Below, piece by piece: positions 2,920 through 27,056 of a stretch of 37,067 nt of DNA; position 1 is the first letter of the stretch, and each line of letters starts with the position of its first letter. Both the position numbers and the translations under genes were made by a program. This DNA is from Candidatus Stahliibacteriota bacterium (GTDB lineage: Bacteria; Hydrothermota; Tepidihabitantia; SM23-42). The DNA lies in the NCBI GenBank assembly GCA_030602565.1, contig JAUVZL010000026.1, forward strand, positions 1-37,067, read 5' to 3'. The notes under the pieces are model-generated. The model did not search any database and was not told where the DNA came from. It worked only from the letters and a program-made list of their open reading frames with translations.

Positions 2920-3411
2920 ATGGCTTATATAACTAAAATAGATAATAAAGAATTCAAGGTAGACCTAAAACAAGAAGGTAAAGATTTTAAGGTCTACTTA
3001 GATGGTAAAGAAATAAAGGTTGAGGTAGCCCATGAACAAGGCGCTCAGTTGACTTTAATAGTTGACGACAAACCATTCAATGTTATTCTAGAAACCGACG
3101 ACCTTATTGTCGTTGCAGGTGAATCATACAACGTGGAGATATTTGATGAACAAGTAGAGAAATTCATGAAGGCAAGCACGGGCAAATCTGAAAAGCGGGA
3201 ATTGGCAGTGAAAGCAGCGATGCCAGGTTTGATTATCGAGGTGACTGTTAAGCAAGGTGACAAAGTTACCGAGGGACAAGGTTTGCTCATAATTGAAGCG
3301 ATGAAGATGCAGAACGAGATGCAAACGCCAAGAGATGGCGTTGTCAAAACGATAAAAGTGAAAAAAGGTCAAACTGTTAATAGCGGAGAGACACTGATTA
3401 TAATAGAATGA
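2920..3411 (+). CDS. Biotin carboxyl carrier protein of the propionyl-CoA carboxylase
   Basis: A 163-residue carrier. Residues 1-85 are beta-rich and resemble the biotin-carboxylase/carboxyltransferase linking (BT-like) region found in propionyl-CoA carboxylase alpha chains. Residues 95-163 are a biotinyl/lipoyl domain with the EAMKMQNE motif; Lys129 is the biotin attachment site and should be modified by the BirA-like ligase at 27079. A short lysine/serine-rich linker joins the two parts. It swings between the biotin carboxylase (1388) and the carboxyltransferase (2). A homologous carrier at 22310 serves the second carboxylase. No good Shine-Dalgarno is visible; the ATG at 2920 is the first in frame. 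Confidence 0.92.
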   Translation: MAYITKIDNKEFKVDLKQEGKDFKVYLDGKEIKVEVAHEQGAQLTLIVDDKPFNVILETDDLIVVAGESYNVEIFDEQVEKFMKASTGKSEKRELAVKAAMPGLIIEVTVKQGDKVTEGQGLLIIEAMKMQNEMQTPRDGVVKTIKVKKGQTVNSGETLIIIE

Positions 3412-3430
3412 AATGATACTGCGTTAAATT

Positions 3431-4981
3431 ATGCTTTTTTCTCCAGATGACATAAAAGATCTGAACTACAAGGAAGACCTTGGTAAGCCTGGTGAGTATC
3501 CATTTACGCGTGGGGTATATCCCACAATGTATACGGGTCGGCTATGGACTATGCGCCAGTATGCCGGTTATGCGACCGCTGAAGAATCGAATCGTCGCTA
3601 CTGTTATTTACTGAAACAGGGGCAGACAGGTCTATCTGTTGCATTTGATTTACCAACCCAGATGGGTTATGATTCGGACCATGAACTGGCGACTGGTGAG
3701 GTGGGTAAGACCGGTGTTGCCATTGATACACTTGAGGATATGGAGATACTGTTTAAAGGAATACCGCTTGATAGAGTGAGTACGTCAATGACAATCAATG
3801 CTACCGCGGCAATTCTTCTGGCAATGTATATTGCAGTTGGTGAAAAGCAGGGCGTGCCAAAAGAGAGATTATCCGGTACTGTTCAGAATGATATCCTTAA
3901 GGAGTATATTGCGCGCGGCACATACATATATCCGCCTACAGCATCGATAAAGATTACTGTCGATATCATGAGATATTGCAGCAAGTCCCTGCCCAGGTGG
4001 AACACGATTTCTGTTTCCGGGTATCATATAAGAGAAGCCGGCGCAACTGCAGTACAAGAGCTTGCTTTCACACTTGCAAACGGAATGGCTTATGTGCAGT
4101 ATGCAATTGAGCGGGGTGGACTTGATGTGGATTCGTTTGCGCCGCGTATTTCATTTTTCTTTAATGCACACAATAATTTCTTTGAAGAAATTGCCAAGTT
4201 TAGAGCTGCCAGGAGGATCTGGGCGCGTGCCATGAAAGAACGATTCGACGCAAAGAACCCGAAGTCGTGGATGCTTCGATTCCACACTCAGACTGCCGGT
4301 TCAACATTGACTGCCCAGGAACCTGATAATAATGCGATACGTGTTGCATTACAGGCACTCGCTGCAGTTCTGGGCGGGACCCAGAGTCTGCATACGAATT
4401 CGCGCGATGAAGCCTTGACCCTGCCCACTGAGGAATCAGTTGTACTTGCCCTGCGCACTCAGCAGCTCATTGCATACGAAAGCAGAATCCCAGATGTGAT
4501 TGATCCTTTAGGTGGATCTTATTATATCGAGTCATTAACAGATACTATTGAAAAAGAGGTGAATGAGCATCTAAAGAAGATTGATTCGATGGGTGGCGTT
4601 CTAATTGCTATTGAGAAAGGATATTTTCAGGAGGAAATCCACCGCAGTGCATATGAGTATCAAAAAGCCATTGAACAAGATGATATAAGTGTGATTGGCG
4701 TAAACAAATTCGCGTCTTCTGATGAAGGGAAGAAGTTCACGACAATGAGGGTTTCGTCTAAAACAGTGAAGAAACAGCTGCAAAGGATTAAACGCGTTAA
4801 AGCTAGGCGTAATAACGCAAGGGTGAAATCGCTGCTGAAAAAATTAGAGGGATCAGCGATTAATAATGAAAACTTGATGGAACCAATCTTGGCGTGCGTG
4901 AAGGCGTATGCTACAATTGGTGAAATTTCAGATACGTTGAGAGACGTTTATGGAGAATATAAAGAGAAGAACATATTCTAG
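3431..4981 (+). CDS. Methylmalonyl-CoA mutase, catalytic (large) chain without B12-binding domain
   Basis: Adenosylcobalamin-dependent rearrangement of (R)-methylmalonyl-CoA to succinyl-CoA. It has 516 residues and covers only the substrate-binding TIM barrel; the B12-binding domain must be a separate subunit, which is not in the window. Visible motifs are [17 protein letters not shown] with Tyr44 (equivalent to Tyr89 of the Propionibacterium enzyme, which favours methylmalonyl-CoA over 2-hydroxyisobutyryl- or isobutyryl-CoA), [19 protein letters not shown] with His199 (equivalent to His244), [14 protein letters not shown] and [12 protein letters not shown]. This split layout is common in archaea and many anaerobes. 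It follows the propionyl-CoA carboxylase genes by 20 bases; the epimerase lies at 7969 and the cobalamin adenosyltransferase at 27783. Confidence 0.94.
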
Positions 4982-5438
4982 ATGCCTAAAATACCTAAAC
5001 ACCTAAATGCCTAAAAAAGTTGCGAAGAAATACAGTGTGAGTGATAAACTAAAAGAAAGAGCTTACAGATTTGCATTAAGTATCTTAGAACTCGCTGCAA
5101 TGTTGCCTAATACTGACGAAGGTCGGATTATAAGAAGGCAGCTTTGTAAATCAGGTACATCAGTTGGTTCTAATTTAGAAGAAGCAGATGGTTCCTTAAC
5201 ATTGAATGATTTTATATATAGGGTCGATATTGCTTTTAAAGAAGCTAAAGAGACAAGATATTGGTTACGAATAGTGATTGCCCGAAAATTATTAAAGGAA
5301 AAAGTAGTTGTGCCTCATCTTGGTGAGTGTGTTGAGCTTATAAAAATTCTGTCGACAATTATCTACAAATGTTTAAAATAGATTTTAGGTGTTTAGGTAT
5401 TTTGGACTTTTAGGTATTTGCTTCTAAAAGGAGGTTTT
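4982..5438 (+). repeat. Family A repeat copy 2, enclosing a four-helix-bundle gene
   Basis: The 5' arm (4982-5016) is CCTAAAATACCTAAACACCT-like. The 3' arm (5382-5424) is its inverse, TTTTAGGTGTTTAGGTATTTTGG plus TTTTAGGTATTTGCTT. Bases 4988-5007 and 5384-5403 are exact reverse complements over 20 bases. The enclosed gene begins inside the 5' arm (its first codons ATG CCT AAA AAA are repeat sequence) and stops at 5381, where the 3' arm begins. A ribosome-binding site (AAAGGAGG) for the next gene follows immediately. This is a gene-bearing version of the gene-less copy at 22215. Confidence 0.85.
5007..5381 (+). CDS. Four-helix-bundle protein (23S rRNA intervening-sequence / bAvd-like family)
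   Basis: A 124-residue, strongly helical, basic protein. It carries the family signature SGTSVGSNLEEADGS (residues about 50-64) and later FKEAKETRYWL (about residues 79-89). The family (S23/IVS four-helix bundle) includes proteins encoded in 23S rRNA intervening sequences and the accessory protein of diversity-generating retroelements; most members have no known function. No reverse transcriptase or variable repeat is nearby. The gene fills the space between the two arms of a family A repeat, and its first codons are repeat sequence, so it looks like the cargo of a small mobile element rather than part of the surrounding metabolic operon. Confidence 0.88.
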   Translation: MPKKVAKKYSVSDKLKERAYRFALSILELAAMLPNTDEGRIIRRQLCKSGTSVGSNLEEADGSLTLNDFIYRVDIAFKEAKETRYWLRIVIARKLLKEKVVVPHLGECVELIKILSTIIYKCLK

Positions 5439-7819: not shown

Positions 7820-7868
7820 TCTACTTGTGAAGAAAAAAATGCTTATGGCGTAATGAAATGCAATAGAA

Positions 7869-7951
7869 GTCACCCTGAATTTGTTACCGGGAAAGTCACC
7901 CTGAACTTGTTTCAGGGTCTAACGGAGATGCTGAAACAAGTTCAGCATGAC
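7869..7951 (+). repeat. Family D hairpin repeat (CCTGAACTTGTTTCAGG type)
   Basis: Bases 7901-7915 (CTGAACTTGTTTCAG) and 7931-7945 are exact reverse complements over 15 bases, separated by GGTCTAACGGAGATG. A partial extra copy of the left arm (GTCACCCTGAATTTGTTACC) precedes it at 7869. Hairpins of this wording are widespread in intergenic DNA of unrelated bacteria. It fills most of the space before the epimerase gene. Confidence 0.8.
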
Positions 7952-9579: not shown

Positions 9580-9590
9580 TCTTGGAAAGG
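9564..9590 (+). other. Perfect 12-bp palindrome spanning the methionine gamma-lyase stop codon
   Basis: CCTTTCCAAGAT (9564-9575) pairs exactly with 9579-9590 across a three-base loop. The left arm and loop are the last codons of the gene; the right arm begins within the TGA stop. There is no T-run afterwards; family B repeat sequence starts at once. Confidence 0.7.
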
Positions 9591-9713
9591 AAGATTCAGA
9601 CAGATGGAAGCGGATGCAAACAGAATTTTTGTCAAATTAAATCCGTCTACATCTTAATTTGCCGATAGGTTAATCCGTTTACATCTACTTTTTCCAGAGG
9701 AAAAAGAAAGGAG
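9591..9713 (+). repeat. Family B repeat copy 1 (no gene)
   Basis: Contains the family B units in order: GATTCAGACAGATG, GCGGATGCAAACAGAATTTTT, AAATCCGTCTACATCTTAAT, TTGCCGATAGG, AATCCGTTTACATCT, then the terminal hairpin CTTTTTCC-AGA-GGAAAAAG (9688-9706, 8 bp). AAAGGAG follows directly and serves the HMG-CoA synthase start at 9720. Confidence 0.85.
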
Positions 9714-11928: not shown

Positions 11929-11935
11929 ATATGAA

Positions 11936-12050
11936 GCAGATTCAGACAGATGTTAGCAGATGCACACGGAATTTTTGTCAAATTAAATCCGTCTACATCT
12001 TAATTTGCCGATAGGCAAATCCGTTTGCATCTATTTTTCCGAAAGGAAGG
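11936..12050 (+). repeat. Family B repeat copy 2 (no gene)
   Basis: Units GATTCAGACAGATG, GCAGATGCACACGGAATTTTT, AAATCCGTCTACATCTTAAT, then the internal hairpin TTTGCC-GATA-GGCAAA (12004-12019), AATCCGTTTGCATCT and the terminal element TTTTTCC-GAAA-GGAAGG. The Shine-Dalgarno GGAAGGAGG of the DUF35 gene grows directly out of the 3' side of that hairpin. Confidence 0.87.
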
Positions 12051-12470: not shown

Positions 12471-12570
12471 CCCCGTTAGATATGAACTTAATTCTTCTTT
12501 TCAATTATTTATGATGTGATGAGGATGATTTGGTGCGTTTAGCTTTTAAGGATTGTTTTATCTAACGGGG
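12471..12570. repeat. Family C element 1: 100 bp with 12-bp terminal inverted repeats
   Basis: The left end CCCCGTTAGATA and the right end TATCTAACGGGG-like sequence are reverse complements over about 12 bases. The interior is AT-rich and non-coding. Related ends occur at 12696, 17903, 25476 and 25601, so this is a dispersed MITE-like family. Confidence 0.7.
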
Positions 12571-14446: not shown

Positions 14447-14463
14447 TCCGCATTCTGCGGATT
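14445..14463 (+). other. Hairpin at the mccB stop codon
   Basis: AATCCGCA (14445-14452) pairs with TGCGGATT (14456-14463), loop TTC. The left arm starts inside the TAA stop codon. It marks the left border of the gene-bearing family B element. Confidence 0.55.
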
Positions 14464-15007
14464 TAGATTCAAACGGATGAATGCGGATGCAAACGGATTT
14501 TTTCAAAATTTGATATAAACAGATTATAGCGGATGCACACGGATAAGTTGTTACATAAAGAGTTAACATATAAGATAATTGGTATTTTATTCAAGGTACA
14601 CAGCAGTCTTGGCTGTGGATTCACGGAAAGGATATACCAACGTGCGATTGAGGTTGAGCTCGAGAAAGTCGGTATGTTATTCGAGGTTGAAAAAGAAATC
14701 GATATTGTATATGATGGTCAAAAAATCGGGAAATATCGATTAGACATAGTAGTTGAAAATAAGGTCATACTTGAGTTGAAAGCGACAGATCGCTTACCGA
14801 AGATATTTCGTGAACAATTGATTTCTCAACTAAGAGCATCACCGTATGAAGTTGGTCTATTGGTGAATTTTGGAACGCCAAAACTATATTATATGCGTTT
14901 TGCAAGAAAGAAATCTGTTTGAATCTTAATTTGTCGATAGGCAAATATGAATCCGTCTGAATCCGCTCCAATCCGTTTGCATCTATTTCTCTGAAAGAGA
15001 AAGGGGG
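14464..15007 (+). repeat. Family B repeat copy 3, enclosing a GxxExxY gene
   Basis: The 5' part (14464-14545) has AGATTCAAACGGATG, GCGGATGCAAACGGATTTTT and AGCGGATGCACACGGATAAG. The 3' part (14918-15007) has TCTGTTTGAATCTTAATTTG, TCGATAGGCAAAT, AATCCGTCTGAATCCG, AATCCGTTTGCATCT and the terminal hairpin TTTCTCT-GAA-AGAGAAA (14986-15002). The gene-less copies have the same 5' and 3' parts joined directly. The gene's first codons (ATG CAC ACG GAT) are repeat sequence, and its last codons also lie in it. Confidence 0.87.
14533..14922 (+). CDS. GxxExxY protein (PD-(D/E)xK-like)
   Basis: A 129-residue protein with the family name motif GFTERIY at about residues 33-39, and a nuclease-like core YRLDIVVENKVILELKA (Asp, then Glu-x-Lys) at about residues 64-80. 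The family is related to PD-(D/E)xK nucleases and its function is unknown. Both ends of the reading frame lie within family B repeat sequence, and gene-less copies of that repeat occur four more times in the window. That makes this a cargo gene, or the enzyme, of a small repeat-bordered element rather than a metabolic gene. Confidence 0.88.
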   Translation: MHTDKLLHKELTYKIIGILFKVHSSLGCGFTERIYQRAIEVELEKVGMLFEVEKEIDIVYDGQKIGKYRLDIVVENKVILELKATDRLPKIFREQLISQLRASPYEVGLLVNFGTPKLYYMRFARKKSV

Positions 15008-20702: not shown

Positions 20703-22214
20703 ATGTTTAAGAAAATTCTAATTGCCAACCGTGGTGAAATTGCAATTCGCATCGCCCGCGCATGCCATGAAATGGGTATTGCAACAATCGGCGTATATTC
20801 TACGGTTGATGCCAATTCATGCCACCTTTGGCACATGGATGAGGCGGTCTGCATTGGTGACCCTGCACCCCAGGCAAGTTATTTGAACATCCAAACTATT
20901 ATTGAGCAAGCACGCAGAACCGGGGCTCAAGCAATTCATCCTGGTTATGGATTTCTGGCAGAGAATGCACGGTTTGTCAAAGCTTGCGAGGATGCCGGGA
21001 TTATGTTCATCGGGCCGAGCTCCAGGGCGATGGCTTTGGTAGGTGATAAAGTTGCATCGCGCAATACAGTGAAGCATGTCGATGTGCCGATTATCCCCGG
21101 TATGGAAACGAGTAGCACAGATCTGGTTACATTCAAAAATATGGCTGCCCAAGTGGGTTATCCGGTTATTGTTAAAGCATCAATGGGCGGCGGCGGTAAA
21201 GGCATGAGAGTTGTGCGCAGTGAGCAAGAACTCGAAGCCAGTGTTAACGCCGGGCAAAGAGAGGCTCAGAGCGCCTTTGGTGACGCTACGGTTTACCTTG
21301 AGAAATATATTGAGAAGCCCCGGCACATTGAGTTTCAAGTTATTAGAGATACCCATGGTAATGTTGTCCATTTATACGAGCGCGAATGTTCTATTCAACG
21401 TCGCCACCAGAAGATAATTGAGGAGACGCCTTCCCCAGTCCTTGATAATGCTCTGCGCACTAAGATGGGTGAAGCGGCAAAAAGAGTTATTGAAGCTGCT
21501 GACTACACCAATGCTGGAACCGTTGAATTTCTCGTAGACCAGAACAAAAAATTCTATTTCCTGGAAGTAAATGCGCGTGTTCAAGTCGAACATCCGATTA
21601 CCGAGATGGTTACTGGTATAGATTTAGTACGCCAACAGATTCTGGTCGCGGCTGGAGGAAAACTCGGGTTCCAGCAAAAAGATATAAGTCAACGCGGGCA
21701 TGCAATAGAATCACGTATTTACGCTGAAGATCCAGACAACAACTTCATGCCGTCGCCAGGTAAGATACTATTCCTGCTTGAGCCAAGTGGGCCGGGTATC
21801 AGGGTAGATTCAGGGATATATCAGGGCTGGAATGTACCACCTCATTACGATCCGATACTTTCCAAGCTAATAACCTGGGCTGAAACAAGAAAAATATCAC
21901 TCGCCCGCATGTCCTGCACTTTAGAAAACTATATTATCCTCGGTATCAAAACCAATATTGGTTTCTTGAAGCGCATTATGGATACAGAGAAATTCATAAC
22001 TGGTGAGTACCATACGCATTTTATTGATGATAATGAAGAAGCCCTAATCCCTCAACATGAGAACATAGCCCAGGTTTTAATTGCCGCTTCTTTGATAAAG
22101 ACATTAAGGAGAACAGGGGTCAGTGCCCAAATCGCCTCCAAAGCAGCGCAGGTTCACAAAATAACGACGCCGTGGCAAGAATTGGGTTCTTGGGAAATAT
22201 GCAAACATGATTAA
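20703..22214 (+). CDS. mccA: Biotin carboxylase subunit of the second acyl-CoA carboxylase (3-methylcrotonyl-CoA type)
   Basis: A 503-residue ATP-grasp biotin carboxylase, closely similar in plan to the one at 1388. N-terminus MFKKILIANRGEIAIRI, GGGGKGMRVV near residue 161, RHIEFQVI, and VNARVQVEHP with catalytic Arg292. The carrier domain is again a separate gene 95 bases downstream. Its expected partners are mccB (12839) and the carrier at 22310. Start ATG at 20703 directly against the terminal hairpin of a family B repeat; translation may depend on opening that hairpin. Confidence 0.9.
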   Translation: MFKKILIANRGEIAIRIARACHEMGIATIGVYSTVDANSCHLWHMDEAVCIGDPAPQASYLNIQTIIEQARRTGAQAIHPGYGFLAENARFVKACEDAGIMFIGPSSRAMALVGDKVASRNTVKHVDVPIIPGMETSSTDLVTFKNMAAQVGYPVIVKASMGGGGKGMRVVRSEQELEASVNAGQREAQSAFGDATVYLEKYIEKPRHIEFQVIRDTHGNVVHLYERECSIQRRHQKIIEETPSPVLDNALRTKMGEAAKRVIEAADYTNAGTVEFLVDQNKKFYFLEVNARVQVEHPITEMVTGIDLVRQQILVAAGGKLGFQQKDISQRGHAIESRIYAEDPDNNFMPSPGKILFLLEPSGPGIRVDSGIYQGWNVPPHYDPILSKLITWAETRKISLARMSCTLENYIILGIKTNIGFLKRIMDTEKFITGEYHTHFIDDNEEALIPQHENIAQVLIAASLIKTLRRTGVSAQIASKAAQVHKITTPWQELGSWEICKHD

Positions 22215-22304
22215 ATGCCTAAATACCTAGACACCTAAATATCTAAAAAATAAATTTAGGAATTTAGGTATTTTGGTCCGCCGAAGGCGGATTTAGGTAT
22301 TTGC
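22215..22304 (+). repeat. Family A repeat copy 3 (both arms, no gene)
   Basis: The 5' arm ATGCCTAAATACCTAGACAC... is followed after a short A-rich join by the 3' arm TTTAGGAATTTAGGTATTTT and, after a small hairpin TCCGCC-GAA-GGCGGA (22277-22291), the end TTTAGGTATTTGCTT. The order and ends match the arms on either side of the four-helix-bundle gene at 5007, as if that gene were absent here. The small hairpin sits exactly where copy 2 has only GACT. Confidence 0.82.
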
Positions 22305-23199: not shown

Positions 23200-23988
23200 A
23201 TGACATTCAACAACATAATTATTGAGAGCGAAGGCAAATTGGGGATTCTTAAGATTAACCGACCTGATGTCTTGAATGCTGTAAATGTGGCGACAATACT
23301 TGAGATTGAGCAGGCAATGCATCATTTTAATGATGATGACAACATCTATGTGGTTATCATAACTGGTCAAGGCAAGTCATTTGTGTCAGGTTCAGATATT
23401 GCACGTTTGATAGAGATGGATGGACTAAAGGCACGGGAATACAGTCGGATCGGCCAGCGTGTTTTATCCTATATCGAAAATATGGAAAAACCAGTTATTG
23501 CGGCAGTGAATGGTTATGCCCTTGGTTCAGGATGTGAGCTTGCCATGGCTTGCGATATAAGGGTTGCTTCTGAAAAAGCAAAATTCGGTCAGCCTGAAGT
23601 GAAACTCGGCATAATCCCTGGTCATGCTGGAACACAGCGCCTTGCCAGATTAGTGGGTATAGGAAAAGCCAAAGAGCTCATTTTCACAGGTGATCTAATC
23701 GACGCTCAGGAGGCATTGAGAATAGGTTTAGTAAATAAAGTTGTTCCTCTTGATAAATTTATGGATGACGTAAAGAGTATCGCCAATAAGATAGCAGATG
23801 CGGGCCCGACTGCAGTACATATTGCCAAAACTGTGATCAATCGCGGTATTGATACGAATCTTACAACAGCGAGTTCCTATGAAATGGAAGCCTTTAGCAT
23901 TCTTTTCTCTACTGATGAAGCGAAAGAAGGCATGAAGGCGTTTTTGGAAAAGCGAAAGCCCAAGTGGGCTTTAGATTCAAACGGATAA
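23200..23988 (+). CDS. Enoyl-CoA hydratase (crotonase)
   Basis: A 262-residue crotonase with both catalytic glutamates, Glu113 in LGSGCELAMACD and Glu133 in FGQPEVKLGIIPGHAGTQRL, unlike the hydratase at 19052. It likely interconverts crotonyl-CoA and 3-hydroxybutyryl-CoA, together with the 3-hydroxyacyl-CoA dehydrogenase (24097) and thiolase (25812) that follow. The strong Shine-Dalgarno AAGGAGG fixes the start. The last codons (LDSNG) come from family B repeat sequence; the paralog at 19052 ends differently just after the same KRKPKW motif. Confidence 0.93.
   Translation: MTFNNIIIESEGKLGILKINRPDVLNAVNVATILEIEQAMHHFNDDDNIYVVIITGQGKSFVSGSDIARLIEMDGLKAREYSRIGQRVLSYIENMEKPVIAAVNGYALGSGCELAMACDIRVASEKAKFGQPEVKLGIIPGHAGTQRLARLVGIGKAKELIFTGDLIDAQEALRIGLVNKVVPLDKFMDDVKSIANKIADAGPTAVHIAKTVINRGIDTNLTTASSYEMEAFSILFSTDEAKEGMKAFLEKRKPKWALDSNG
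23955..23972 (+). other. Hairpin at the end of the crotonase gene
   Basis: AAAGCCCA (23955-23962) and TGGGCTTT (23965-23972) are perfect inverted arms with a two-base spacer, inside the codons for KPKWAL. The right arm merges into family B sequence TTTAGATTCAAACGGAT. Confidence 0.55.
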
Positions 23989-24090
23989 TTACGGATGCAG
24001 ACGGAATTTTTATCAAATTTAATCCGTTTGCATCTTAATTTGCCGATAGGCAAATCTGTCTGCGTCTATTTTTCCGAAGGAAAAAGGAGG
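23971..24090 (+). repeat. Family B repeat copy 5 (no gene)
   Basis: Begins inside the crotonase coding end with TTAGATTCAAACGGAT, then ACGGATGCAGACGGAATTTTT, AAATTTAATCCGTTTGCATC, internal hairpin TTTGCC-GATA-GGCAAA (24040-24055), TCTGTCTGCGTCT and terminal hairpin TTTTTCC-GAA-GGAAAAA (24069-24085). GGAGG follows immediately for the gene at 24097. Confidence 0.87.
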
Positions 24091-24096
24091 TTTTAG

Positions 24097-25434
24097 ATGA
24101 CATTGGATGATAGGCTGCAAAATGTGGCGATTGTCGGTGCGGCGGGAAAGATGGGTAGTGGTATCGGTGTTATGATCGCCCAGGAGATGGCCAAGCTGAA
24201 GTTAAAAGCGGAGAATAAAAACAAGGTGTACCGAACTAATCTTATTGATATCAGTGAGACGGCGCTCGATGGTTTACGTGGCTATATGATAACACAGCTG
24301 ACCAAAGTAGCGGAGAAATCCACTGTTCACTTGAGGAAATTATACGAGGAACGCCAGGATCTCATTGAGAATGCTGATATCATAAGGACCTTTGTTGACA
24401 ATGCTTCATCAGTGCTCAATTTTACGACTGATCTCAATGCGGTTAAAGACGCCCACTTGGTTTTTGAAGCGATTGTTGAAAATGACAAGGTAAAAACAAA
24501 AATCTACCGAAAAATGAAGAAATTATGTTCTCCAGATACCATGTTCTTAACGAATACATCGAGCATTCCGATTTCATATCTTGATGAACAAGCAGGTCTT
24601 GATGGTCGTCTGATCGGCTACCACTTCTACAACCCACCAGTTGTGCAGCGTTTAGTCGAGGTCATCGCGGCGGATAACACTGTCGAAGAGCTGAGAAAAA
24701 TCGGTGATGAGTTGGGAAAACGGCTGCGCAAGAAATTAGTTTCCTCGTGTGACATATCAGGTTTTATCGGCAATGGTCATTTCATACGCGACGGTTTGTA
24801 TGCACTGAGTGAAGTAGAACGTCTTAAAAGCACTTTTCGCTATCCTGGTGCGATCTATGTTGTCAATAGAATTACCCAGGATTTTCTCTTGAGACCCATG
24901 GGTATTTTTCAACTCATTGATTATGTTGGGGTTGATGTATTCCAGTGTATTTTGAGAGTCATGCGGACTCATCTTGACGACACAAGTCTCAGGAGCAGAT
25001 TTGTCGACAAGCTGGTTAAGCAGCATGTGCTGGGTGGACAATATGCTGATGGTTCCCAAAAAGACGGTTTTCTCAAATATGAAAGGAATCGCCCTGCGGG
25101 TATCTATAATTGCAGCAAGAAAGACTATTTCATGCTTAATGATAAGTGGAAGAAGAAGGTGGATGCCAAGATTGGATCACTCCCTGACGGTTTTGCTCCA
25201 TGGAAAGCACTCCTGATAAACCCCAAGAAAGAAGATGCTCTACAAAGTCATTTTGATAAGCTAAAGAAGATGGATACACTTGGTTCAAGGCTCGCGGTCG
25301 ATTTTCTTAAGAAGACAAAGGCGATAGGTGAACAGTTGGTCAATGACGGCGTTGCGGCTTCAACTAAAAATGTTAATGCGGTTCTAACGAATGGATTTTA
25401 TTGGTTATACGGGCCGATAAATAATTACGTATAA
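24097..25434 (+). CDS. 3-Hydroxyacyl-CoA dehydrogenase, long form
   Basis: NAD-dependent oxidation of 3-hydroxyacyl-CoA. N-terminal Rossmann fold with GAAGKMGSG at residues 14-22 (GxxGxMGxG), HLVFEAIVEN with the catalytic Glu, TNTSSIPIS, and GYHFYNPPVVQRLVEV with the catalytic His, followed by the helical domain starting at SGFIGNG. It has 445 residues against about 285 for the usual single-domain enzyme; the extra length is in the N-terminal insert (residues 25-100) and a C-terminal second helical region rich in Lys. It follows a crotonase and precedes a thiolase. Strong Shine-Dalgarno GGAGG. Confidence 0.88.
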   Translation: MTLDDRLQNVAIVGAAGKMGSGIGVMIAQEMAKLKLKAENKNKVYRTNLIDISETALDGLRGYMITQLTKVAEKSTVHLRKLYEERQDLIENADIIRTFVDNASSVLNFTTDLNAVKDAHLVFEAIVENDKVKTKIYRKMKKLCSPDTMFLTNTSSIPISYLDEQAGLDGRLIGYHFYNPPVVQRLVEVIAADNTVEELRKIGDELGKRLRKKLVSSCDISGFIGNGHFIRDGLYALSEVERLKSTFRYPGAIYVVNRITQDFLLRPMGIFQLIDYVGVDVFQCILRVMRTHLDDTSLRSRFVDKLVKQHVLGGQYADGSQKDGFLKYERNRPAGIYNCSKKDYFMLNDKWKKKVDAKIGSLPDGFAPWKALLINPKKEDALQSHFDKLKKMDTLGSRLAVDFLKKTKAIGEQLVNDGVAASTKNVNAVLTNGFYWLYGPINNYV

Positions 25435-25475
25435 GTAAATGCAGGATCGCTACGCTCGCAGGATCATTTCACTTG

Positions 25476-25536
25476 CCCCGTTAAATACATGCATAGGGAT
25501 AAAATTATTTGTTCGCTAAAATGTTATTTAACGGGG
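25476..25536. repeat. Family C element 3 (61 bp)
   Basis: Ends CCCCGTTAAATA and TATTTAACGGGG are perfect inverted repeats of 12 bp with an AT-rich interior. Confidence 0.72.
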
Positions 25537-25548
25537 TAAACAGGAGAT

Positions 25549-25788
25549 GCAGTATCGTCCCGACATTGGTCGGGACTCGTTAAAGAAAGAAAAGGGCGAG
25601 CCCCGTTAAATAATAAAAAGAGACTTGCGATGTCTACAGAAAACAAGTTTAGCAAAGAGATTAATGTGGTAAAAACCACAAATATCTTGTATTTTACAGG
25701 GCGAGCCGAAGGCGATACTGCGAGTTCCGTTAGGAACGATACTGCGAATCCGCCATGTTGCGTGGCGGATGATACTGCAATTACTGCG
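25549..25788. repeat. Hairpins with different stems joined by GATACTGCGA units
   Basis: GATACTGCGA occurs at 25714 and 25738 and as GATACTGCAA at 25771; its inverse GCAGTATC is at 25549. Between or beside these units lie hairpins of unrelated sequence: GCC-GAA-GGC (25705), GTTCC-GTTA-GGAAC (25724-25737), ATCCGCCA...TGGCGGAT (25748-25770) and GTCCCGAC-ATTG-GTCGGGAC (25557-25576). The family C element at 25601 lies within this array. Confidence 0.75.
25601..25702 (+). repeat. Family C element 4 (102 bp) with transposase-like start frame
   Basis: Ends GCCCCGTTAAATA and TATTTTACAGGGC match as inverted repeats at 11 of 13 positions; CGAG occurs on both outer sides. An ATG at 25630 opens MSTENKFSKEINVVKTTNIL, which then runs through the right end into the hairpin chain. 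Same size and layout as the element at 12696. Probably an internally deleted insertion sequence. Confidence 0.5.
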
Positions 25789-25811: not shown

Positions 25812-27056
25812 ATGTCATTTTTCAGGAAAAAAATCTACGCCTGCGCGGGTTTTAACACGATATCATTGGGTAGTGGTAGAAAGGAGTTCCACCCCAAGAA
25901 ACCGCGTCCAGGTATTGAATATTATATTAAAGAGGCAGGTCTTGGATCAATCAATCAAATACAGAATCCTGAAGCAATAGATGAGGGTGTTCTTGGAAAC
26001 TTTGTTGCTGAAAGGTTTTGCAAACAGGGAAACCTTGGCGGGTTTTTCCCAATGGTTCATCCAACCTTCCAATACAAGCCCTGCATTCGTGTTGAAGGTG
26101 CCTGTGATTCAGGTGGTCTGGCGATAGTTGTTTCAATCAAGACGATTCTGGCTGACCTCGCAGATGTCGTTCTCTGCATTGGCGTTGAAATCCAGAATTC
26201 AGTTAAGGCAATCTATGGTGCTGACTATCTTGCTGCTGCTGGTTGGTTCTCTGGAGAAAGAAAAAAGGGTCATGCGTATTTCTTTCCTGATCAGTTCTCA
26301 CAACGTGCTGGTGCTTGCTTTGAAAAATTCGGCAAGGGAAAAGTCCGGGCCGGTATGGCTCAATGGTATGTCAATGCGATTGAAAATGCAAGGAAATACC
26401 CCCCTGCGCAGGAATTTCACAATAAGAACCCTGAGCTCTTTGCTACGGGCATGACGCCTCCTAACCCCAAGGTATTTTGTGAAAACATCAATGTTTTTGA
26501 CTGCTCAAAGGTTTCTGATGGTAGTGCCGCGCTGATTTTTGCTTCGGAAGAAGGTTTGAAAAAAATTGGCGTTGACCAGAAAGATGCCACTGAAGTTATA
26601 GCTTACGCGCAAGTTCAAGATAACTTAACAACCCCACCACCTGACTTAACCAAATTATCGACGTGCGCAATAGCAGCTAAACGTGCTTACGAACGTGCCG
26701 GTATCAAACCAGGTGATTTGAGCGTGCTTGAGGTCCATGATTGCTTTACCATTGCAGGTCTTTTGGCAATAGAAGCTGCAGGGTTTGCCGACTACGGTGA
26801 AGGTGCGGATTTTGTAAAGGATGGCAGAACTAAGTTGACCGGTACAATACCAACGAATACAACTGGTGGTCTTATTGGTTATGGTCATCCTACTGGTGCG
26901 ACCGGTGTTCGAGAGGCGGTTGATGTGGTCAACCAGCTAGTCGGCAAAGCAGATGACTGTCAGGTTAAGATTGGTGCGGATCGGCCTTATGGTATGATGT
27001 CCAGTATGGGTGGTAATGACATAACCGTGGTGGCGATGATATTTAGGCAAACATAA
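25812..27056 (+). CDS. SCPx-type thiolase (acetyl-CoA acetyltransferase-like), second copy
   Basis: A 414-residue thiolase. VEGACDSGGLAI contains the nucleophile Cys98, EVHDCFTIAG carries the HDCF signature, and NTTGGLIGYGHPTGATG the C-terminal His. It follows crotonase and 3-hydroxyacyl-CoA dehydrogenase and so completes a short-chain beta-oxidation or ketogenic set. It differs from the thiolase at 10778 in length and active-site flanks (ACDSGG against ACCSSG). Start at 25812 with AAAGGAGAG; longer frames upstream belong to repeat sequence. Confidence 0.9.
   Translation: MSFFRKKIYACAGFNTISLGSGRKEFHPKKPRPGIEYYIKEAGLGSINQIQNPEAIDEGVLGNFVAERFCKQGNLGGFFPMVHPTFQYKPCIRVEGACDSGGLAIVVSIKTILADLADVVLCIGVEIQNSVKAIYGADYLAAAGWFSGERKKGHAYFFPDQFSQRAGACFEKFGKGKVRAGMAQWYVNAIENARKYPPAQEFHNKNPELFATGMTPPNPKVFCENINVFDCSKVSDGSAALIFASEEGLKKIGVDQKDATEVIAYAQVQDNLTTPPPDLTKLSTCAIAAKRAYERAGIKPGDLSVLEVHDCFTIAGLLAIEAAGFADYGEGADFVKDGRTKLTGTIPTNTTGGLIGYGHPTGATGVREAVDVVNQLVGKADDCQVKIGADRPYGMMSSMGGNDITVVAMIFRQT

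Follow-up and report, generated by a model that had tools for sequence, protein, structure and literature searches.

A shared stem is what usually identifies the palindromic repeats of one bacterial family. Integron attC arrays consist of single-stranded hairpins with constant ends and a variable middle, while MITEs such as ERIC are long imperfect palindromes lying in transcribed gaps. REP, BIME and REPIN sequences are short extragenic palindromes with a constant unpaired tag, often arranged as inverted pairs; they are found mainly between co-directional or convergent open reading frames (ORFs), and heterodimers are preferred over homodimers (PMC3733652, PMC2817692, PMC3116915). In REP/BIME sequences with a RAYT, by definition, one end of the palindrome carries a GTAG or CGTC tag (PMC3733652). 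The BOX of streptococci, in turn, is a composite intergenic element with a fixed outer organisation, in which the number of middle modules varies between relatives (PMC3049150). Here we describe an intergenic element in which, by contrast with the usual shared stem, the linker stays constant while the stems differ.

The element lies in the window, the whole stretch of 37,067 nucleotides that was analysed from a Candidatus Stahliibacteriota bacterium, and fills most of the 377 bases that separate a 3-hydroxyacyl-CoA dehydrogenase gene from a thiolase gene (Table 1; gene contexts are mechanical ORF calls, not annotation). It is made of hairpin modules on a fixed connector of 8-10 letters, arranged as two strings that face inward like a fishbone, with linkers of the form GCAG(T/G)ATC in the left arm, GATACTGC in the right arm and a core between the arms. 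Each module reads (G/A)A, stem-loop-stem, GAT(A/C)CTGC, and modules are strung head to tail; across the family the fourth base of the linker varies (GATA/C/G/T-CTGC). A sequence-only reading had described part of this as a chain of hairpins with unrelated stems joined by a 10-base unit, and its components are indeed present: three exact copies of GATACTGCRA on the + strand (at 25714, 25738 and 25771; shuffled windows average 0.09 copies, and three is never reached in 100 shuffles), one inverse copy, and the named hairpins GTTCC/GGAAC, ATCCGCCA/TGGCGGAT and GTCCCGAC/GTCGGGAC. The chain was correctly seen, but the stretch 25714-25787 is the right arm only, and two more inverse linkers lie beyond the stretch then considered. 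Likewise, the family-C insertion reported there exists, but as two CCCCGTTAAATA elements instead of one. The statement that the stems share no sequence was too strong, since GTTCC, ATCCG and GTCCC all fit RTYC, the commonest stem type of the family.

Table 1. Positions of the hairpin-module element, its parts and neighbouring features in the window.
Feature	Position	Strand	Description
3-hydroxyacyl-CoA dehydrogenase (3HCDH_N) gene	24097-25434		flanks the element on the left-arm side
Whole two-armed hairpin-module element	25441-25787	.	between the 3HCDH_N gene and the thiolase gene
Left arm, outer part	25441-25475	-	linkers, mini-hairpin, then ATTTCACTTG
Left arm outer linkers	25441-25448 and 25458-25465	inverse	GCAGGATC
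Left arm mini-hairpin	25449-25455		GC-TAC-GC; GC-GTA-GC in module orientation
Inserted family-C palindrome 1	25476-25536	.	CCCCGTTAAATA...TATTTAACGGGG, 61 bp
Left arm, inner part	25541-25579	-	CAGGAGAT, linker, hairpin, TCG
Left arm inner linker	25549-25556	inverse	GCAGTATC
Left arm hairpin	25557-25576	-	GTCCCGAC-ATTG-GTCGGGAC
Short core	25580-25600	.	last 4 bases CGAG (25597-25600), copy 1 of a 4-bp direct repeat
Inserted family-C palindrome 2	25601-25701	.	CCCCGTTAAATAATAA...TTGTATTTTACAGGG, 101 bp
Right arm module 1	25705-25721	+	hairpin GCC-GAA-GGC (25705-25713), linker GATACTGC (25714-25721)
Right arm module 2	25722-25745	+	GA, hairpin GTTCC-GTTA-GGAAC (25724-25737), linker GATACTGC (25738-25745)
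Right arm module 3	25746-25778	+	GA, hairpin ATCCGCCA-TGTTGCG-TGGCGGAT (25748-25770), linker GATACTGC (25771-25778)
Outer end	25779-25787	+	AATTACTGC; degenerate last linker, same form at other element ends
Thiolase gene	25812-27056		flanks the element on the right-arm side
Probable remnant of another copy	3406-3430	+	GAATGAAATGATACTGCGTTAAATT; directly upstream of the gene for methylmalonyl-CoA mutase (3431-4981)
Further family-C palindrome	12471-12570		

Over 91 distinct spacers the uninterrupted outer stem averages 4.34 bp against 0.64 bp in shuffles, none of which exceeds 0.98. The shortest modules are mini-hairpins of 7 nt (e.g. GC-GTA-GC, AT-GAA-AT or AC-GAA-GT), and in the 22 distinct short modules all 44 cells are paired, with 16 double changes and full covariation of both pairs (score 0.955, versus 0.50 when shuffled). 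In long stems, pairs 1-6 covary beyond every shuffle and RTYC...GRAY is favoured, GTCC/GGAC, ATCC/GGAT and GTTC/GAAC together making up 53 of 103. The stems are variable yet of one style, to which the three stems of the window conform; repetition of the same stem within one element is not significantly underused (P = 0.25-0.31).

The own genome (G000; 2.74 Mb in 104 contigs) holds 30 exact copies of GATACTGCRA, against 3 for the reversed-pattern control, and the pair pattern GATACTGCN{8,38}GATACTGC occurs nine times in it and never in the control, so the objection that the linker might be found at background frequency and away from palindromes fails. Twelve of the 30 copies lie within hairpin chains between genes; the remainder are single copies lacking such a chain, mostly in apparent coding sequence. 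The combination of a constant linker with variable palindromes is real; related genomes have it too, and it grows and shrinks by whole modules. The linker-pair pattern GATNCTGCN{8,38}GATNCTGC is found 18 times in the own genome (once in the control), 40 times in G003, 20 in G001, 21 in G012 and 24 in G013. When 147 genomes of the phylum are compared, hairpin chains with the GATACTGC pair pattern are confined to two families (f1 and f2) of one order, and G093 has the most pairs (56). In a three-linker scan of GTDB genomes, those of the matches listed that resemble hairpin chains by the stem check are of the WOR-3/Stahlbacteria type, and most others of the matches listed resemble repeats in coding sequence. 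No further chain appeared in a 394-kb sample of four large contigs, which indicates that copies are sparse. Copy numbers are lower bounds because metagenome assemblies break at repeats. The clusters consist of an inverse left arm followed by a direct right arm and fit tightly between ORFs that, by mechanical calls, are mostly co-directional or convergent.

About 14 orthologous gaps between genes hold elements, in up to three genera; orthology of a gap here means similarity of its flanks. The gaps shared by species and genera adjoin the genes for methylmalonyl-CoA mutase, mutS, RNase Y, a PHP-domain (dnaE-like) protein and formamidopyrimidine-DNA glycosylase, among others. Orthologous elements often differ by exactly one or two modules, or by one hairpin absent between two linkers. 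A single module separates G002 from G003 at the mutS gap, G012 from G003 at the methylmalonyl-CoA mutase gap, and G093:C78 from C61 of the own genome; two modules separate G003:C134 from G001:C283 and G093:C71 from G012:C204. One hairpin is missing in the comparison of the own genome with G003 at the PHP-domain gap, and at the RNase Y end G002 and G093 differ in modules from G012 and G003. The own genome also retains deletion remnants at two gaps where the G003 copies are full; at the methylmalonyl-CoA mutase gap the element is carried by G003, G012 and G001. Of the genomes shown, G000 and G003 alone carry an element upstream of the thiolase gene; in G001, G002, G004 and others the sequence at that place is different. 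Since, G003 apart, the other species examined lack the element there, the host probably does not require the window copy.

Stems at orthologous positions change mainly by single substitutions (32 broken pairs, 27 wobbles and 3 double changes). About half of the changes break a pair, so that at the level of sites individual stems are only weakly selected. This comparison rules out that stem diversity arises mainly by compensatory drift, and we conclude that the diversity comes mostly from module turnover under weak selection per stem. The same two right-arm modules are also found at a different gene in G093:C93, which suggests copying. No clean insertion of a whole element with a matching empty site was found.

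The palindromes lodged in the element belong to a MITE-like family of about 60-175 bp, CCC(C/T)GTTA(A/G)...TAAC(A/G)GGG, with further copies elsewhere in the window (Table 1) and at loci L031, L227, L310 and L312. Several copies lie inside linkers of hairpin elements, either at CTG^CRA or bracketed by the 4-bp repeat CGAG (palindrome 2, G093:C11 and G093:C15), and two copies elsewhere are bracketed by TAAA. Palindrome 1 is flanked by CACTTG and TAAACAGG and thus lies inside a left-arm CTG^CRA linker, and G093:C15 carries a related copy at the same linker position; the linker interrupted in G093:C15 is intact in G003 and G002, as is, in G012:C48, the linker corresponding to the G093:C11 insertion. 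Palindrome 2 has CGAG on both sides (25597-25600 and 25702-25705), and near copies of it are present in the G003 and G012 elements. These arrangements suggest that family-C insertion makes 4-bp target duplications, with a possible preference for module linkers. The window contains other repeats too: 8-bp repeats of the CCTAAATA type in several gene gaps and both orientations (1289-1387, 4978-5026, 5375-5413 and 22202-22277), a dispersed family around AGATTCAGACAGATG...AATCCGTTTGCATCT whose copies are about 70-90% alike (9586-9702, 11932-12048, 14459-14549 and 23967-24083), and another palindromic type, AAGTCACCCTGAACTTGTTTCAGGG...GCTGAAACAAGTTCAGCATGAC (7867-7951).

In module orientation, G.T mispairs outnumber C.A mispairs in right arms (22:7) and in left arms (11:3), as counted with a symmetric stop rule, the left-arm bias being marginal by itself (p = 0.06). 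GNA accounts for 25 of the 50 perfect triloops and TNC for none; GNA is a typical loop of stable DNA mini-hairpins. The module strand of the left arm is opposite to the transcript, so a constraint at the RNA level would predict the reverse bias there. Since wobbles and GNA loops follow the module strand in both arms, single-stranded DNA, not the transcript, is likely to be the relevant form. Compared with shuffles, the window element folds with z -8.9 as RNA and z -8.3 as DNA, and the G003:C134 element behaves alike (RNA z -8.3; the DNA-parameter fold is also significant). Left linkers are able to pair with right linkers, which gives the fold its resemblance to a fishbone. Cognate arms pair at -12.1 kcal/mol, compared with -1.4 for a reversed and -2.1 for a shuffled left arm, and with -18.2 for chimeric arms of different elements, a value that may partly reflect modules common to several elements. 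Cognate arms thus pair worse than mixed ones and do not look tuned to each other, and long perfect inverted repeats seem to be avoided or lost.

We consider it probable that the element is an order-restricted, non-autonomous, modular, REP/BIME/BOX-like intergenic repeat, whose modules turn over via slippage or recombination between linkers. Its two-armed anatomy, the conservation and covariation of its hairpins, its persistence at orthologous gaps and its gain and loss of whole modules are demonstrated, as are its decay by deletion and the second palindromic element inside its linkers. Modules would come and go as replication slips or recombination occurs between the short linker repeats, and module-strand hairpins in single-stranded DNA may aid this turnover. 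New stems would come mostly from module exchange and slow stem drift rather than from site-specific integration, and the arms would avoid turning into a single long perfect inverted repeat. The whole-module differences between orthologous arrays provide a natural record of array growth, shrinkage and long-inverted-repeat avoidance. Much more tentatively, the constant linker could be the recognised or recombining part, leaving the stem free, with a putative dedicated activity that lengthens, shortens and shuffles inverted module arrays in single-stranded DNA and with the linker (CTG^CRA) as a preferred landing site for the second palindrome.

One could instead see a mobile element of the REP/REPIN type, in which a Y1 (HUH, RAYT-like) transposase recognises the single-stranded module hairpin and the linker stands in for the GTAG tag. 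The strand-specific hairpin features of both arms would fit, as would the inverted arms, which resemble REPINs (PMC3116915), the modules recurring at a different gene in G093:C93 and the 13 Y1_Tnp genes that the genome encodes. The search for an HUH recombinase that the sequence-only reading had proposed does not bear this out, however: the flanks of 52 Y1_Tnp loci are enriched in GGGGTCAG and show no clear excess of linkers, and abundance is uncoupled, G012 having 21 module pairs and no Y1_Tnp match (at 89% completeness) and G011 having five Y1_Tnp genes and no module pair. Moreover, the GTAG/CGTC tag is absent and the stems are far more variable than described for the REPs of one RAYT, which leaves transposition by such an enzyme unlikely. 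Linkage to a RAYT was pursued by three family searches and flank 8-mers, with no link to the hairpin elements. Y1_Tnp genes are frequent in the order (L031-L040, L196-L225, L329-L340), and the GGGGTCAG/ATGGGGTC repeats enriched in their flanks are perhaps the enzymes' own recognition repeat.

A structure in the transcript, processing, stabilising or terminating RNA between operon genes and kept for its function in the mRNA, would agree with the very stable RNA folds of whole elements, with their position mainly between co-directional or convergent genes and with their long persistence at the same gaps. We nevertheless hold it to be improbable, as the wobble bias and GNA loops of the left arm are found on the strand that does not correspond to the transcript, DNA-parameter folds are significant too, and the same thiolase gap lacks the element in most relatives; in addition, the elements contain no Rfam family at the gathering score, only 6S RNA and tRNA being found elsewhere in the loci.

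Assembly by site-specific recombination, with folds like those of integron attC sites, had been the analogy first drawn, and modules that are gained or lost whole and hairpins with constant flanks do recall it. Yet there are no cassettes, the arms are mutually inverted, and the 12 partial matches to integron integrase TIGR02249 in the genome all fall below the 265-bit cut-off. The attC heptamers are absent from the modules; by eye, GTTAAAT/ATTTAAC occurs in the inserted palindromes only, and in the order opposite to attC. Nor does the proposed search for a tyrosine recombinase help, with seven PF00589 matches in the genome and none on the window's contig, so this origin is highly improbable. 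A tyrosine recombinase gene lies beside a tRNA gene and about 600 bp from another hairpin element (G000:C46:34415-34876 and about C46:35010-35095), which we treat as coincidence. Chance palindromes in low-constraint intergenic DNA, for which nothing speaks beyond the small size of single modules, are refuted by the shuffle and reversed-pattern controls and by the recurrence at orthologous gaps, and can be dismissed with near certainty.

How, then, does the element compare with known systems? Like integron attC arrays it has single-stranded hairpins with constant ends and a variable middle, but it lacks cassettes, an integron integrase and, by eye, the RYYYAAC...GTTRRRY frame in its modules. 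With ERIC-type MITEs it shares a long imperfect palindrome in a transcribed gap, although it consists of repeated modules on a linker and the MITE-like sequences here are the inserted CCCCGTTAAATA elements. As in BOX, it is a modular composite whose internal module number varies at orthologous gaps; it is set apart by description only, boxA, boxB and boxC being defined by their own sequences (PMC3049150), whereas this element has small hairpins of differing stems on a constant linker and inverse arms. Its extragenic palindromes, inverted pairs and position between co-directional or convergent ORFs are those of REP/BIME, but its tag is CTGC(G/A)A...GAT(A/C) and not GTAG or CGTC, many different stems share one linker in each genome with several modules per arm, and there is no linked RAYT gene, nor does abundance track the presence of a RAYT. 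A literature search by motif sequence gave only unrelated matches among those listed, and inward-facing hairpins on a fixed connector are a design for which we found no counterpart in the REP/BIME and BOX literature. As cognate arms pair worse than mixed ones, the heterodimer protection from clearance that has been proposed (PMC3733652) becomes testable. In its workings the element is closest to REP/BIME mosaics, and it resembles BOX in that its module number varies; we file it as neither.
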